Source: an uncultured Faecalibacterium sp.
GTDB taxonomy: Bacteria > Bacillota > Clostridia > Oscillospirales > Ruminococcaceae
Reading direction: 5' to 3'
Length of the DNA: 40,857 nucleotides
Assembly (NCBI GenBank): GCA_944386015.1
Contig: CALWZK010000016.1
Location: 1-40,857 of the forward strand
Both the position numbers and the translations under genes were made by a program. The notes beneath the pieces were generated by a model. It was not told where the DNA came from. It saw nothing but the letters and a program-made list of their open reading frames with translations, and made no database searches. Positions 17,725 through 36,318 of this stretch are shown here, one piece after another (positions within the stretch are counted from its first letter, which is position 1; each line of letters opens with the position of its first letter).

Positions 17725-17877
17725 CCCGCCTATATGCCACAAAAAAAGGTCCGAATTTTGTAAGGGTTGTATAAGGGTGTTTCTTTTTTCAGTCCCGCTC
17801 CCCCGGTCATCCTCTCTGCAGCCGGGGCCATTTTTAGTCGTTTTGCACCTTGACAAATCCCCCGGCCGGGGCGGACG

Positions 17878-18330
17878 GTCATCGACCTGTCGGCCCTCCG
17901 CATTGCCCCCTGCGTGGGCTGCTTTGGCTGCTGGACCCGCACCCCCGCCCGGTGCGTCATCCGGGACGACGCCGTGCAGGTTTACCCCAAAATCGCCGCC
18001 GCCCGCCGGGTGCTGTATGTCAGCCGGCTGTTCTGCGGGGGCTACGACCTGCCCATGAAAACCATGCTGGAGCGGGCCATCCCCATCCAGCAGGCTTTCA
18101 TCCGGCTGGTGGACGGGGAAACCCACCACTTCCAGCGCCGGGTGGAGCCCAAAGAGGCCGCCATCCTGGCCTACGGGGACATCCCCCCGGAGGAGCAGCA
18201 GCTGTTCCGGCGGCTGGTGGCCCGGAACGCAAAAAACATGAACTTTGCCTCGTATCGGGTTCTCTTTGTGCCCGAGGCCGAGGTGGAGGCCACCGCACAG
18301 AAGGAGGTGCTGTCATGGAGCGGATGCTGA
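17878..18330 (+). pseudogene. Flavodoxin-family oxidoreductase lacking its N terminus
   Basis: The frame encodes VIDLSALRIAPCVGCFGCWTRTPARCVIRDD, which matches the middle of NAD(P)H-dependent FMN reductase/flavodoxin-family proteins with the typical GC..CW..TPG.C motif, and runs to a normal C terminus. The first 25-35 residues with the FMN-phosphate loop are missing: the frame is closed by a TGA about 10 codons upstream of 17878, and the only standard start is GTG at 17914, inside the cysteine motif. Upstream is the licT promoter region. It is either a truncated gene or one read from an unusual start. It overlaps the next gene by 16 bp. Confidence 0.6.
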
Positions 18331-18773
18331 TCCTCAACGCCAGCCCCCGGGTCCCCCGGTCCAACTCCAAGGTTTATGCCCAGATGCTGGCCCACGGCTG
18401 GGGCGGCCCTGCCGCTTACCGGGAGGTGCTGTCCCCCGCCGCCTTCCCCGCCCTGCGCCAAGAGCTGGAACAGGCTGCCCACCTGGTGCTGGTGTTCCCC
18501 CTCTACGCCGACAGCCTGCCGGTGCCCCTGGTGCGGTTTTTGAAGGAGCTGGAAGCCAATCCCCCCGCCGCCCGGCCGGTGGTGTCGGTGGCGGTGAACT
18601 GCGGCTTTTTGGAGCCGCAGCAGAATGACCTGGCGGTGGAGATGGTGCACCTGGTCTGGGACATCAACGGCATCTTCATGGCCCAGCCCGTCAGCGACGC
18701 CCTGGCCCTCATTCTCTCTGCCGCCCTGGTCCTCCGGGAGCAGCACATCCTCTGCGGGGGCAGCGCAAAGTAA
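18315..18773 (+). CDS. Flavodoxin-fold NAD(P)H oxidoreductase-like protein
   Basis: A 152-residue protein starting MERMLILNASPRVPRSNSK, the FMN-phosphate loop of the NADPH-dependent FMN reductase/flavodoxin fold. Later segments (LVLVFPLYADSLPVPLVRFLKELE and VSVAVNCGFLEP) correspond to the next strands and the flavin-facing loops. AAGGAGGTG lies upstream within the end of the preceding frame, so the two were probably a translationally coupled pair. The substrate is unknown. Confidence 0.75.
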   Translation: MERMLILNASPRVPRSNSKVYAQMLAHGWGGPAAYREVLSPAAFPALRQELEQAAHLVLVFPLYADSLPVPLVRFLKELEANPPAARPVVSVAVNCGFLEPQQNDLAVEMVHLVWDINGIFMAQPVSDALALILSAALVLREQHILCGGSAK

Positions 18774-18922
18774 CGCCCTACTTTTCTGAAGAAAAGTAGG
18801 CAAAAGACTTTTCACCTGGTACCACTGACGGCCTGGGCTTCTCAAGGCCCAGCCGGCGGGAAAGCCCTGCGCTCCTTCCCAGGCTCCCGGCCTGCGGCCC
18901 TGTGAGTCCAAAAGTACATCTG

Positions 18923-18956
18923 ATCCCTGCTCCTGGTTTCAGGAGCTGGGATTTTT
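18923..18956 (+). terminator. Terminator downstream of the flavodoxin-like genes
   Basis: GATCCC.GCTCCTG and CAGGAGC.GGGAT form a stem with one mismatch and a GTTT loop, followed by TTTTTATT. It lies about 150 bp after the stop at 18773. Confidence 0.75.
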
Positions 18957-19416
18957 ATTGTTTTTATTTATGATCTAAACCCACCCTCCACCCTTTATAT
19001 GTTCCCCCGCGGCTGCGCCGCCGCCCCCACACGGGGGCTCTGGGCCTCTGACTGCTCCTTCTGGGTTTGCGCTGCGGGGACCTTCTAGCTGCGGCAATGC
19101 CAATAAAAGAAAGAGCAGTTTCCCGCCCGTCCCCCGGAGGGGGATGTCGCGCAGCGACAGGGGGACACCTCTGTGGGCGGGTGGGTGGGTTCAAATGTTC
19201 CCCAGGTCGAGCGGCAAAGTTTTCGCAAAGGCAACCGCCGTGAGGGTGAAAGACAATAGAGCAGTCTGCCCAGACGTTAGAAGTCACGCGCCAGCGTACA
19301 GCTGGCGCTTTTCTACAATCGGAGCGGCGGTCAAAGGCCGTTAAGAAAAATGCATCTGCCGCCGTTTTAGCCTGTTGGTGGTTTCAATGGGCCAGGCAGA
19401 GTGTCGCATTTTTTAG

Positions 19417-19532
19417 GCAAGCACGCCGAAGCGCGTCCTGCGGACGATGCAGCGAGGCGTGCTTGGCGCAGCGCTCCAATTTTCACAAGGGCGCTGTGCG
19501 GCCCGCAGGGAAAATTGGCTAAGCGCAAGAGG
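19417..19532 (+). repeat. Two-hairpin structured element, copy 1
   Basis: Hairpin A: AAGCACGCC (19419-19427) pairs with GGCGTGCTT (19456-19464) and encloses a small hairpin CGTCC-TGC-GGACG (19434-19446). Hairpin B: CCAATTTTC (19476-19484) pairs with GAAAATTGG (19510-19518), extended at its base by GCGCT with AGCGC. Conserved blocks are GGCGCAGCGCTCC (19465-19477) and GGCTAAGCGCAAGAGG (19517-19532). A second copy lies at 35411-35525. The strand shown is arbitrary. Confidence 0.8.
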
Positions 19533-19572
19533 AGGGGAGGCAGGGGGCCCCCTCCCTCCGGGTTGCCGTTGC

Positions 19573-19613
19573 CCAAATATGCGGCGCGGGTCGCGGCCCG
19601 CTTGCATATTTGG
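19573..19613. repeat. Inverted repeat after copy 1 of the two-hairpin element
   Basis: CCAAATATGC (19573-19582) pairs perfectly with GCATATTTGG (19604-19613); the loop has a further GC-rich stem. It is not found beside copy 2, so it is a separate hairpin. Confidence 0.65.
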
Positions 19614-19753
19614 ACGGCTGCCCCTGCTCCGCCTCGCCTGTTTCTGCCGCAGGCAGCGGCTCGGCTGCGCAGCCCCCTCTGGGCCAGCGCAGCGTCTTAA
19701 CGGGCCAAGCGGCCCGGTCAGCGCTAAAAACAAAAGCATAAACTTTAGACAAC

Positions 19754-19790
19754 AAAAAACCGGACCTGTCTCCCCTACAGGTCCGGTTTT
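19754..19790 (-). terminator. Terminator of the trehalose operon
   Basis: CCGGACCTGT and ACAGGTCCGG form a perfect 10-bp stem with a 7-nt loop and T runs on both sides, so it can act in both directions. It lies 14 bp after the treC stop. Confidence 0.92.
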
Positions 19791-19804
19791 CTGGCTGCGC
19801 CTGT

Positions 19805-21436
19805 TTACTTTTTCAGCACCCAGCACTCATAAGGCCGCAGGCTGGTGCGGGCTGCAGGCGCCGGATAGTTGCCCAGCAGCTGGGCAGCAGTGCCCCACCC
19901 TTCCGGCAGGGCCACCGGGGCCTCGTGGCCGGTCAGGTTGCAAACCACCAGGGCCTCCTCGTCGTCGGTCCAGCGACGGTAGGCCAGCAGGTCGGCGTCA
20001 TCTTTGTACAGGAATTCGATCTTGCCTTCGCTGATCACCTGCTCCTGCTTGCGCAGGGCCACCAGCTGCTTGTAGTAGCTGTAGATCGAGTCGGGGTCCC
20101 CCACCTGGGCGGCGGCATTGATGGTGGGATAGTTGGACACCTCTTCCAGCCAGGGGGTGCCGGTGGTAAACCCGGCGTGGGCCGATGCATCCCACTGCAT
20201 GGGGGTGCGGCCGTTGTCCCGGCTGCGCTGGGCCAGAATCTCCAAAGCCTCGTCGGCCGTCTTGCCCTGCTCCTGAAGGATCTTGTAATAGTTCAGGCTC
20301 TCCACGTCCCGGTACTGGTCGATGGTCTTGTAGTGGGCATTGGTCATGCCGATCTCTTCCCCCTGGAAGATGTAGGGGGTGCCCCGCATCATGTGGGTGG
20401 CGGTGCCCAGCATCTTGGCGCTTTCCTTCCAGTACCTGCCTTCATCGCCGAAGCGGCTCACCGCACGGGGCTGGTCGTGGTTGCACCAGAACAAAGCATT
20501 CCACCCGTGGCCTGCCTCCATCCCCTCCTGCCAGAGGGTGAACAGGTTTTTCAGGGCCATCCGGTCGGGAGGCATCAGGGACCACTTGTCCCCGTTCTTG
20601 TAGTCCACCTTCAGGTGGTGGAAGCTGAAGCTCATGCTCAGCTCGTGGCGGTCGGGGTTGGTGTAGCCGATGCAGTTTTCCAGGCTGGTGGAGGACATCT
20701 CTCCCACCGTGATCATCCCGTCGATGCCGCCGGCCGCCACCAGTTCCTGCAGGTACTTGTGGACGTTCCGGCCGTCGGTGTAAAAGCGGCGGCCGTCCCC
20801 CTGGTGGTCGTCCTCGTAGACTTCCGGTTTGGAGATCAGGTTGACCACGTCAAAGCGGAAGCCCTTGATGCCCTTGCCTTTCCAGAACCGCAGGATGTCG
20901 GCCAGCTCGGCCCGGACCTCCGGGTTTTCCCAGTTCAGGTCGGCCTGGCTCACGTCGAACAGGTGCAGGTACCACTTGCCCAGGCTGGGCAGGTATTCCC
21001 AGGCGGGGCCGCCGAACTTGGACACCCAGTTGGTGGGGATCTTGTCGGGGGTGCCCTCCTTGAAGATGTAGTAGTTCTGGTACTTCTCGTCCCCGGCCAG
21101 GGCCTTCTGGAACCATTCGTGGGCGGTGGAGGTGTGGTTGAACACCATGTCCAGCATCAGGCCGATGCCCCGCTTGTCGGCTTCCCGCACCAGGGTTTCC
21201 AGGTCCTCCATGGTGCCGAACCGGGGGTCGATGGCCCGGTAGTCCGCCACATCATAGCCGTTGTCCCGCTGGGGCGAGGGGAAAAAGGGGGTCAGCCAGA
21301 GGTAATCCACCCCCAGGTCTTTCAGATAGTCCAGCTTGGCGGTGACGCCGGGCAGGTCCCCCAGGCCGTCGCCGTTGGTGTCGCAGAAGGACTTGGGGTA
21401 GATCTGGTACACCACTTTGTCATGAAAATTTGCCAT
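19805..21436 (-). CDS. treC: Trehalose-6-phosphate hydrolase (GH13)
   Basis: A 543-residue cytoplasmic GH13 enzyme that hydrolyses trehalose-6-phosphate to glucose and glucose-6-phosphate. The catalytic set is intact: nucleophile Asp196 (GFRFDVVN), acid/base Glu246 (VGEMSS) and transition-state Asp321 (NHDQPR). A calcium-type loop DTNGDGLGD is at residues 19-27. The family also includes oligo-1,6-glucosidases, but the linked TreP-like transporter and TreR-like regulator favour trehalose-6-phosphate. AAGAAGGAAT precedes the start. It is also called treA in Bacillus. Confidence 0.9.
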   Translation of the reverse strand: MANFHDKVVYQIYPKSFCDTNGDGLGDLPGVTAKLDYLKDLGVDYLWLTPFFPSPQRDNGYDVADYRAIDPRFGTMEDLETLVREADKRGIGLMLDMVFNHTSTAHEWFQKALAGDEKYQNYYIFKEGTPDKIPTNWVSKFGGPAWEYLPSLGKWYLHLFDVSQADLNWENPEVRAELADILRFWKGKGIKGFRFDVVNLISKPEVYEDDHQGDGRRFYTDGRNVHKYLQELVAAGGIDGMITVGEMSSTSLENCIGYTNPDRHELSMSFSFHHLKVDYKNGDKWSLMPPDRMALKNLFTLWQEGMEAGHGWNALFWCNHDQPRAVSRFGDEGRYWKESAKMLGTATHMMRGTPYIFQGEEIGMTNAHYKTIDQYRDVESLNYYKILQEQGKTADEALEILAQRSRDNGRTPMQWDASAHAGFTTGTPWLEEVSNYPTINAAAQVGDPDSIYSYYKQLVALRKQEQVISEGKIEFLYKDDADLLAYRRWTDDEEALVVCNLTGHEAPVALPEGWGTAAQLLGNYPAPAARTSLRPYECWVLKK

Positions 21437-35354: not shown

Positions 35355-35361
35355 GCAGCAA

Positions 35362-35401
35362 AAAAAGTCCCAGCCGGACGACATGTGCGTACGGCTGGGA
35401 C
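35362..35401 (-). terminator. Terminator downstream of the HD-domain gene
   Basis: GTCCCAGCCG and CGGCTGGGAC form a perfect 10-bp stem followed on the minus strand by seven T. It lies 155 bp past the HD gene, with copy 2 of the two-hairpin element in between. Confidence 0.8.
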
Positions 35402-35410
35402 ACCGACAGG

Positions 35411-35525
35411 GCAAACACAGCGACCGCGTCCTGCGGACGAACCAGGGAGCTGTGTTTGGCGCAGCGCTCCGGTTTTTGCAAGCACCCGCTGCGGTGCGAA
35501 GCAAAAATCGGCTAAGCGCAAGAGG
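35411..35525 (+). repeat. Two-hairpin structured element, copy 2
   Basis: Hairpin A: AAACACAGC (35413-35421) pairs with GCTGTGTTT (35449-35457) around CGTCC-TGC-GGACG (35427-35439). Hairpin B: CCGGTTTTTGC (35469-35479) pairs with GCAAAAATCGG (35501-35511, one G-T pair). The blocks GGCGCAGCGCTCC (35458-35470) and GGCTAAGCGCAAGAGG (35510-35525) are identical to copy 1. Helix sequences differ from copy 1 but remain paired. Confidence 0.8.
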
Positions 35526-35555
35526 GCCGCAATCTGCCTTTTTTGTCTTTATATA

Positions 35556-36050
35556 TTATAAGGATTGCAGACAGAGGGCCAGCAGGGTTTTCCCCTGGTC
35601 GGTCTGGAACACCGCCTCGATCTCCTGCCGCCGGGCCGGGTCGGGCGGGCACTCGTAGCAGTTGACGATCAAATCCGCCTCCATCAAAAGCTGCATCAGC
35701 TGCCCGTGGGGCCGGCGGTATTCATGGTGGTGGAGCACCAGCTCCAGCACATTGGGCAGCACCTCCGCCGGGTAGCCCGCCTTTGCCAGGAAGTCGGACA
35801 CCAAAGCCGGGGCGGCCTGCTGCTGCTCGGCCTGGCTGGCGGCGCCGCCGTGGTCCTTGCAGTACTTGATGGCGATGTCGTGGAGGATGGCCCCCGCCCC
35901 CAGAATCTCCTCCTGCTTTTCCTCCAGCCCCGCCTGCTGCCCCAGCAGTTTGGCCAGGGCGTATACCTTCAGAATGTGCTGGGTCCGCCGGGGGTGGCCC
36001 GCCTCATAGCACAGCGCGCTGTACAGCAGCTGCCCTTCCCTTGCCTCCAT
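35556..36050 (-). CDS. HD-domain protein, probable metal-dependent phosphohydrolase
   Basis: A 164-residue helical protein of the HD superfamily. The metal ligands appear as His25 (RRTQHILKVY), His57-Asp58 (GAILHDIA) and a late Asp in LMEADLIVN; His67 and LHHHEY are further candidates. Proteins of this size and type hydrolyse nucleotides or other phosphoesters, but the substrate is not known. The start at 36050 follows GGCGGAGAT; a longer frame would cross its own promoter. It is divergent from the thiamine operon. Confidence 0.8.
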   Translation of the reverse strand: MEAREGQLLYSALCYEAGHPRRTQHILKVYALAKLLGQQAGLEEKQEEILGAGAILHDIAIKYCKDHGGAASQAEQQQAAPALVSDFLAKAGYPAEVLPNVLELVLHHHEYRRPHGQLMQLLMEADLIVNCYECPPDPARRQEIEAVFQTDQGKTLLALCLQSL

Positions 36051-36079
36051 CTTAACATCTCCGCCTTTCGTTTTTCCCC

Positions 36080-36108
36080 AGTATACCCCCAAAAGCCCCC
36101 TGCTGCAA
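36080..36108 (-). promoter_or_regulatory. Promoter for the HD-domain gene
   Basis: TTGCAG (36103-36108), a 17-bp spacer and TATACT (36080-36085) on the minus strand, directly back to back with the thiamine promoter. Confidence 0.6.
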
Positions 36109-36114
36109 CCGCTC

Positions 36115-36143
36115 TTGACAAGGGGGGCCCGCCGCGCTATACT
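36115..36143 (+). promoter_or_regulatory. Promoter for the thiamine operon
   Basis: Perfect TTGACA (36115-36120), a 17-bp spacer and TATACT (36138-36143), about 40 bp before the TPP riboswitch. Confidence 0.88.
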
Positions 36144-36185
36144 TTGAGCCATCAGGGGCCATTTGCCCCCGACACAATTTCATAA

Positions 36186-36268
36186 ACTGGGGAGCTTGCA
36201 GACAGGCTGAGAGGAAGGTGTGCCCTTCGACCCGTAAACCTGATTTGGATAATGCCAACGTAGGGACA
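36186..36268 (+). promoter_or_regulatory. TPP (thiamine pyrophosphate) riboswitch aptamer
   Basis: THI-element signatures in order: GGCTGAGAGGAAGG (36206-36219), CCCTTCGACCC, then CCTGATTTGGATAATGCC and CGTAGGGA. The GGATAATGCC pyrophosphate-sensor side is intact. It is followed 15 bp later by a strong terminator, so TPP binding is expected to stop transcription before thiW. Confidence 0.95.
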
Positions 36269-36282
36269 CACACGCTTGTATC

Positions 36283-36318
36283 ATCGGAGATGCCAAATCA
36301 GGCATCTCCGATTTTTTT
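36283..36318 (+). terminator. Expression-platform terminator of the TPP riboswitch
   Basis: ATCGGAGATGCC pairs perfectly with GGCATCTCCGAT around AAATCA, followed by seven T. Confidence 0.93.

Follow-up and report, generated by a model that had tools for sequence, protein, structure and literature searches.

Two stretches of the window (the whole 40,857-nucleotide stretch analysed, contig CALWZK010000016.1 of the draft assembly GCA_944386015.1 from an uncultured Faecalibacterium sp.) carry copies of a dispersed repeat that we call the A-B unit, made of hairpin A, a six-base linker, hairpin B and a six-base tail (Table 1). Both copies lie in gaps between convergent genes, copy 1 between an ORF with weak, below cut-off FMN-reductase similarity and treC, and copy 2 between a GGDEF gene and an HD-domain gene, with a TPP riboswitch just beyond the latter. 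The end of the ORF upstream of copy 1 matches the 3' end of the gene found at this place in a related genome, G024, and the ORF may thus represent a fusion or a replacement. The first-pass annotation had described two copies with shared blocks in the same order and with stems that change on both sides while remaining paired, and this is confirmed. The outer helix of hairpin A is AAGCACGCC/GGCGTGCTT in copy 1 (19419-19427 with 19456-19464) and AAACACAGC/GCTGTGTTT in copy 2 (35413-35421 with 35449-35457), three pairs being changed on both sides and all kept. In the long stem of hairpin B two pairs change on both sides (A-T to G-C and C-G to T-A), one becomes G-U, and one is an A.G mismatch in copy 1, so that the claim holds in the main for this hairpin. 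Two features were missed, a third unit in inverted orientation and the fact that copy 1 sits in a gap of about 1 kb built largely of other repeats.

Table 1. Features of the window at and around the A-B units (R1, covariance model of the unit; G000, the genome of the window).
Feature	Position	Strand	Basis
ORF with weak FMN-reductase similarity	17850-18773	+	similarity below cut-off
Gap of about 1 kb between convergent genes, largely repeat mosaic, holding copy 1 and the inverted unit	18774-19804		18963-19747 matches several other places in this genome
A-B unit, copy 1	19412-19532	+	R1, 111.1 bits; blastn
Hairpin A of copy 1: 9-bp outer helix, tandem GA/GA, asymmetric loop, 5-bp tip stem	19419-19464	+	sequence; fold; pair counts on relatives
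Linker GGCGCA of copy 1; its C (19467) is the partner of G 19529 in the tail in the extra covarying pair	19465-19470	+	unbiased scans and counts on relatives
Hairpin B of copy 1: 5-bp base, CTA bulge, long stem, AAG internal loop, tip	19471-19526	+	descriptor scan; fold
Third, inverted A-B type unit (hairpin B variant B2 with its own A hairpin)	19559-19678	-	R1, 75.1 bits; sequence and descriptor scan
treC	19805-21436	-	
GGDEF gene	ends 35314	+	
54-bp dispersed hairpin repeat (AAAGTCCCAGCC...) directly upstream of copy 2, a separate family	35361-35414	+	matches to query 662-715 alone in several genomes; found in several places of this and related genomes
A-B unit, copy 2	35406-35525	+	R1, 137.4 bits; blastn
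Hairpin A of copy 2	35413-35457	+	sequence; fold
Hairpin B of copy 2	35464-35519	+	descriptor scan; fold
Probable remnant of a third (B3-type) hairpin after copy 2	35526-35542	+	matches of several G000 copies run on to query 843; by eye
HD-domain gene	35556-36152	-	
TPP riboswitch (RF00059)	36178-36284	+	59.3 bits

The resemblance of the two copies is not due to chance. When copy 1 was searched with blastn against its own genome (G000; a draft of 2.2 Mb in 83 contigs, 89.6% complete), 53 places matched at E<=10, itself included, with copy 2 among them at E 2.6e-19 and with three identical 119-bp copies counting itself; several of the places lie head to tail with a period near 116 bp. Both copies fold better than most shuffled versions of themselves, with z -2.5 for copy 1 (3 of 200 shuffles as good) and -3.7 for copy 2 (0 of 200). 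In hairpin A a variable outer helix is followed by the tandem GA/GA, two pairs, a one-sided loop that is often AAACA, and a 5-bp tip stem with a 3-nt loop, whereas hairpin B has a 5-bp base, a 3-nt bulge on the 3' side, a 9-11-bp stem, AAG facing CGCC or similar, and a short tip stem. A descriptor scan for hairpin B gave 74 hits against 22 on the reversed sequence, so single hits of that scan are not proof. Units are joined with each other and with other hairpin repeats in intergenic mosaics, seen in the gap around copy 1 and at loci L009-L034 of G000 (loci are numbered with an L), in which several other families (hosts F, H and I and a tail GGGTGGGTTTAGATC) carry or lack A-B units. In two further loci, L158 and L159, the unit is followed by two more direct copies of its B half with a spacer (period near 128 bp in L158) before the next gene.

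Covariation supports the fold. Of 149 distinct unit sequences found by pattern, 126 passed a hairpin filter, and 20 of equal length were aligned without gaps (alignment A2). With 36 stated pairs, 96.4% of cells pair, 19 pairs change on both sides, and the score is 0.342 against 0.105 for shuffled alignments (0 of 500 reach it) and at most 0.055 for slid partners. The covariance model R1 was built from these 20 copies, and two wider alignments were fitted to it, which leans them toward its structure: A3, with 85 matches, 76 of them distinct, from 74 loci of Faecalibacterium and its family (92.0% paired, 34 of 36 pairs with change on both sides), and A4, with 38 matches from 30 loci of the family and order, 13 of its rows also in A3 (92.2% paired, 31 of 36). 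Against a null that drops the parsimony changes of each column anew on a FastTree tree, implemented in our own script rather than in R-scape, 14 column pairs are significant in A3, 11 of them in the structure, and 17 in A4, 16 of them in the structure, of 6903 tested each; 25 of 36 and 20 of 36 stated pairs, respectively, are not significant one by one. Importantly, all significant pairs outside the structure involve the third linker base and the tail. The third linker base with the third tail base is C-G 28, G-C 5, U-A 4 and other 1 in A4, and G-C 40, C-G 33, U-A 2 and gap 1 in A3, a further Watson-Crick pair (37 of 38 and 75 of 76 rows) that was not assumed.

A G-U pair on one strand is an A-C mismatch on the other, and the two can be used to ask which strand folds. 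Counting distinct stems once, G-U to A-C is 39:10 in A3 (p 4e-5) and 23:10 in a set of mainly chicken-clade units parsed by Watson-Crick pairs alone (p 0.035), together 62:20, although at least one locus is in both sets (L046/L158) and units that failed the parse were dropped; A4, which overlaps A3, gives 25:12 (p 0.047). A strand-biased C-to-T mutation rate could mimic this. Moreover, of 117 loci tested, 22 have a tRNA gene within 300 bp, and all 22 have it on the strand of the element. Thus the strand written + at both window copies is the one that folds, although RNA and single-stranded DNA are not told apart by the G-U test.

R1 matches 30 of 31 genomes of the genus at E<=0.001, with 94 matches in G000, 84 in G001, 64 in G014, 57 in G023 and 50 in G016 (genomes are numbered with a G), down to 1, and none in G027, at most 117 candidates being scored per genome. 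In one genome for each of 61 genera of the family 7 match, own included, one of them with 46 copies. In 147 sampled genomes of the order 33 match at E<=1e-5, own included, in 14 families, and 24 of the other 32 have one match, under stricter filters and with 24 candidates scored per genome. A plain DNA query, in contrast, had seen only the genus (21 of 61). Two pattern scans of viral contigs gave 7 stretches, all 7 confirmed by R1 and 2 of 7 with a tRNA gene in the stretch; there was no plasmid match, and there were 3 phage-record matches.

The 22 loci near tRNA genes comprise 12 of 20 order-level loci, 3 of 10 in other family genera, 7 of 49 in other Faecalibacterium, 0 of 10 in G113 and 0 of 28 in G000. 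Of 29 places, chosen partly because tRNA genes or pieces had been seen there, 18 gave a match of 12 bp or more between the flank and the neighbouring tRNA; in L161 and L269 the match reaches only the intact gene, leaving 16 with a separate fragment of 12-40 bp. These are 5' fragments upstream of an intact tRNA (for example L256, L261, L267 and L193), 3' fragments starting near the anticodon or T loop (for example L250, L251, L262, L266 and L200), and inverted T-arm pieces in L176, L179 and L216, where inverted copies of the tRNA 3' end lie downstream of tRNA genes, as fold-back copying at a terminator hairpin might leave. In L250 the unit stands where the anticodon loop would be in a partial tRNA-fMet copy, and L266 is similar; in L255 (1-900), by eye, the T-loop of partial tRNA-fMet copies is also interrupted by a different repeat. 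Another recurrent tRNA-linked sequence, like GGGTCCCAACNNGTAGGAATGTCTACC and of unknown nature, was met in L171, L174, L176 and others. Consensus promoters precede the fragment and unit in L256 and L257, but no promoter-like site was found around the window copies. The unit does not resemble an intrinsic terminator, since its 3' tail is AAGAGG, AACCCG or similar rather than a T-run, and no terminator-like site was found on the unit in the window, one weak site beginning in the tail at 35520.

Units also lie at the ends of genes. Eleven copies overlap the stop codon of a permease gene in the sense direction, ten in Faecalibacterium and one in another genus; permease identity was tested for L158, L168 and L191, and the rest were judged from like upstream letters. 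The next gene in L158 and L172 is of the DHDPS family, in L158 nearest to N-acetylneuraminate lyase but below its cut-off. Two copies in two families overlap the guaA stop codon. A census of gene orientation at 55 Faecalibacterium places gave 16 convergent, 27 co-directional with one another (15 along and 12 against the unit), 4 divergent and 8 undecided, but the gene caller, which was our own, misread known genes (L191) and the census is not relied on.

Presence, copy number and orientation differ between species at the same place, and this points to mobility. At the site of copy 2, G001, a related genome, has a different array in the opposite orientation between the same two genes, and the stretch inspected in G014, which shares only the GGDEF side, shows no unit by eye. 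At the site of copy 1, G024 has a short gap with a terminator where G000 has about 1 kb of repeats, though its upstream gene differs. Between two genes that are probably obgE and rpmA, 1 of 13 genomes aligned has the unit; against G007, it is a clean insertion after AGGGG of another hairpin, with nothing duplicated or lost. This is, however, the only site with a base-exact unoccupied counterpart, and the counterpart is from another species; a second site with joined flanks (L186) gave one weak spanning match (68%). Occupied and unoccupied forms of three further repeat families show the same left edge after GGGG, with a base or two of difference at the right edge in two of them (hosts F and H). 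At order level 18 of 20 loci have GGG at the left edge, by eye, although R1 itself favours G there, but many copies of the F. prausnitzii type have none.

Searches for what moves the unit gave no answer. Y1_Tnp, RVT_1 and PF01548, the profiles for RAYT-type transposase, reverse transcriptase and IS110 transposase, all lack a match in five unit-bearing genomes, G000, G001, G016, G023 and G024 (drafts of 80-92% completeness), but G014, with 64 units, has matches to all three, and several other unit-bearing genomes have one or two. Y1_Tnp also has no match in G002, G004, G013 and G021 (the nine genomes without a match being drafts of 77-99% completeness), while G014 has a partial gene with a stop and G012 and G029 have one each; RVT_1 also has no match in G004 and G013 but is present in G014, G021 and G005; and PF01548 is present in G004, G005, G012, G013, G014 and G021. 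Frames of at least 100 aa from 107 loci were clustered in search of a parent gene beside the arrays, but the 40 largest clusters, judged by eye from their first letters, are spurious translations of repeats, an ABC transporter and housekeeping neighbours, and none looks like a transposase. There is no replication-strand bias (64:59 of the 123 places used), which is against a lagging-strand process of the IS200/IS605 kind if contigs start at the origin; in complete Faecalibacterium genomes the matches are denser in the outer tenths of the contigs than in the middle (97 to 91 in deciles 0-2 and 7-9 against 32 in deciles 3-6).

The family is apparently undescribed. Among 4227 Rfam families only TPP scores above the gathering threshold in the window, and four matches around copy 1 are far below it; in 13 relative loci only tRNA and Gut-1, and in 12 more only an S10 leader, are above threshold, none of them on a unit. 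Gut-1 RNA (RF01706) matches above threshold near L261 and below threshold in L263, but not on the A-B unit. In the open-access text searched we found nothing that describes this repeat, as judged from titles and the starts of abstracts (among the papers consulted were PMC2864571, PMC3733652 and PMC8040213), although an overlap with the candidate structured RNAs of human microbiomes, also structured motifs of gut bacteria (PMC8040213), is possible. The first-pass proposal of a structured RNA family or a REP/MITE-like palindromic element under selection for structure is supported, both halves of it in part: there are more copies in the genome and in relatives, covariation is significant, the strand asymmetry shows a folded sense strand, and presence and absence between species point to mobility. 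A match to a known transposon end was tested only indirectly, by the Rfam and gene searches and not with a library of such ends, and strict REP or MITE membership fails. Like REP and BIME elements (PMC3733652), the units are high-copy and intergenic, form mosaics, and have hairpins with internal mismatches; they differ in having two distinct hairpins of about 45 and 56 nt, in the lack of a visible tag and of a Y1 match in this draft genome, and in lying also beside and inside partial tRNA copies. ERIC, BOX and Rickettsia palindromic elements, which appear to be imperfect palindromes of about 100-150 bp in transcribed intergenic DNA, modular in the case of BOX and inside genes in the case of the Rickettsia elements, may be similar in behaviour.

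We favour, with moderate confidence, the view that the A-B unit is a non-autonomous, dispersed element of about 110-120 nt, REP/ERIC-like in behaviour. Its sense strand is selected to fold into two hairpins with conserved internal loops (tandem GA/GA; AAACA; GCA/AA; AAG; a 3-nt bulge) while the stem letters drift in a compensated way, and it occurs across one bacterial order at 1 to 94 or more copies per genome. We infer that it moves in trans through its folded single strand, recognised by a recombinase or transposase not identified here, that it lands often next to G-runs and in arms or loops of other hairpins, tRNA arms included, and that it survives where it does little harm, at gene 3' ends and in convergent gaps. 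In chicken-associated Faecalibacterium it would have multiplied and been joined head to tail with other hairpin modules into mosaics, the window copies being two of these. Copies inside operons, in tRNA leaders or at stop codons are transcribed by position and may have been co-opted as processing or stability structures, which is not shown; the guaA sites in two families and the permease sites in two genera may be vertical, functional copies. A more speculative and rather unlikely possibility is that the folded sense transcript itself is the unit that is recognised and inserted, preferring arms and loops of other folded nucleic acids (tRNA D, anticodon and T loops, terminator-like hairpins), which would make it an order-wide class of loop-seeking element with no counterpart among known bacterial repeats.

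An alternative, which seems unlikely but is the strongest of those considered, is that the unit is a functional non-coding RNA or cis element of the order, for example a protein-binding or processing signal in tRNA leaders and between operon genes, inherited vertically and amplified only in some Faecalibacterium. The single match in most of the matching order genomes, the shared strand with tRNA genes, the sense copies at permease and guaA stop codons and the conserved unpaired letters are in line with this view. However, only 33 of 147 genomes match, although a model built on Faecalibacterium may miss distant ones, and presence differs among 13 species at one site. Moreover, among 26 loci compared, apart from near-identical pairs (L250-L252 and L263-L264), strong protein links are L258-L259 (guaA), L193-L259 and L200-L268 only. 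It is more doubtful that the units are remnants of site-specific integration at tRNA genes, in which the hairpins would be the folded attachment region of tiny cassettes, recombined as single strands much as integron attC sites appear to be. The direct or inverted tRNA fragments next to the unit, several with edges near tRNA loops, and the head-to-tail arrays agree with this scenario, but no R-box GTT/AAC pair was seen by eye, no integrase was seen by eye in the protein clusters beside arrays, without a search for integrase genes, and most Faecalibacterium loci are not near tRNAs (7 of 49 and 0 of 28). Very unlikely is the absence of any selection on folding, with palindromes kept by template-switch correction (quasi-palindrome repair) that rewrites both arms at once: in A2, 86 cells change on both sides and only 7 on one side, as such repair would leave, but it should also pair up the internal loops, whereas mismatched internal loops are kept while the stems around them change, G-U exceeds A-C on one strand, and G-U steps are common at some pairs of the wider set. 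Finally, an ordinary REP/BIME or MITE family moved by a known transposase is the least likely, because, although the copies are dispersed, intergenic and in mosaic arrays and some copy-bearing genomes hold Y1 or IS110 genes (G012, G010 and G022), there is no Y1_Tnp match in G000 and most copy-rich genomes, no GTAG or CGTC tag and no terminal inverted repeat as judged by eye, and no target duplication at the one site resolved.

In any event, the A-B unit adds a family with unusually clean covariation to the dispersed repeats of gut Firmicutes and poses the question of what moves a structure-selected element in genomes where no RAYT, reverse transcriptase or IS110 transposase was found. It also ties such a repeat to tRNA genes and operon junctions, and R1 gives a usable covariance model for annotating intergenic mosaics that are now blank.
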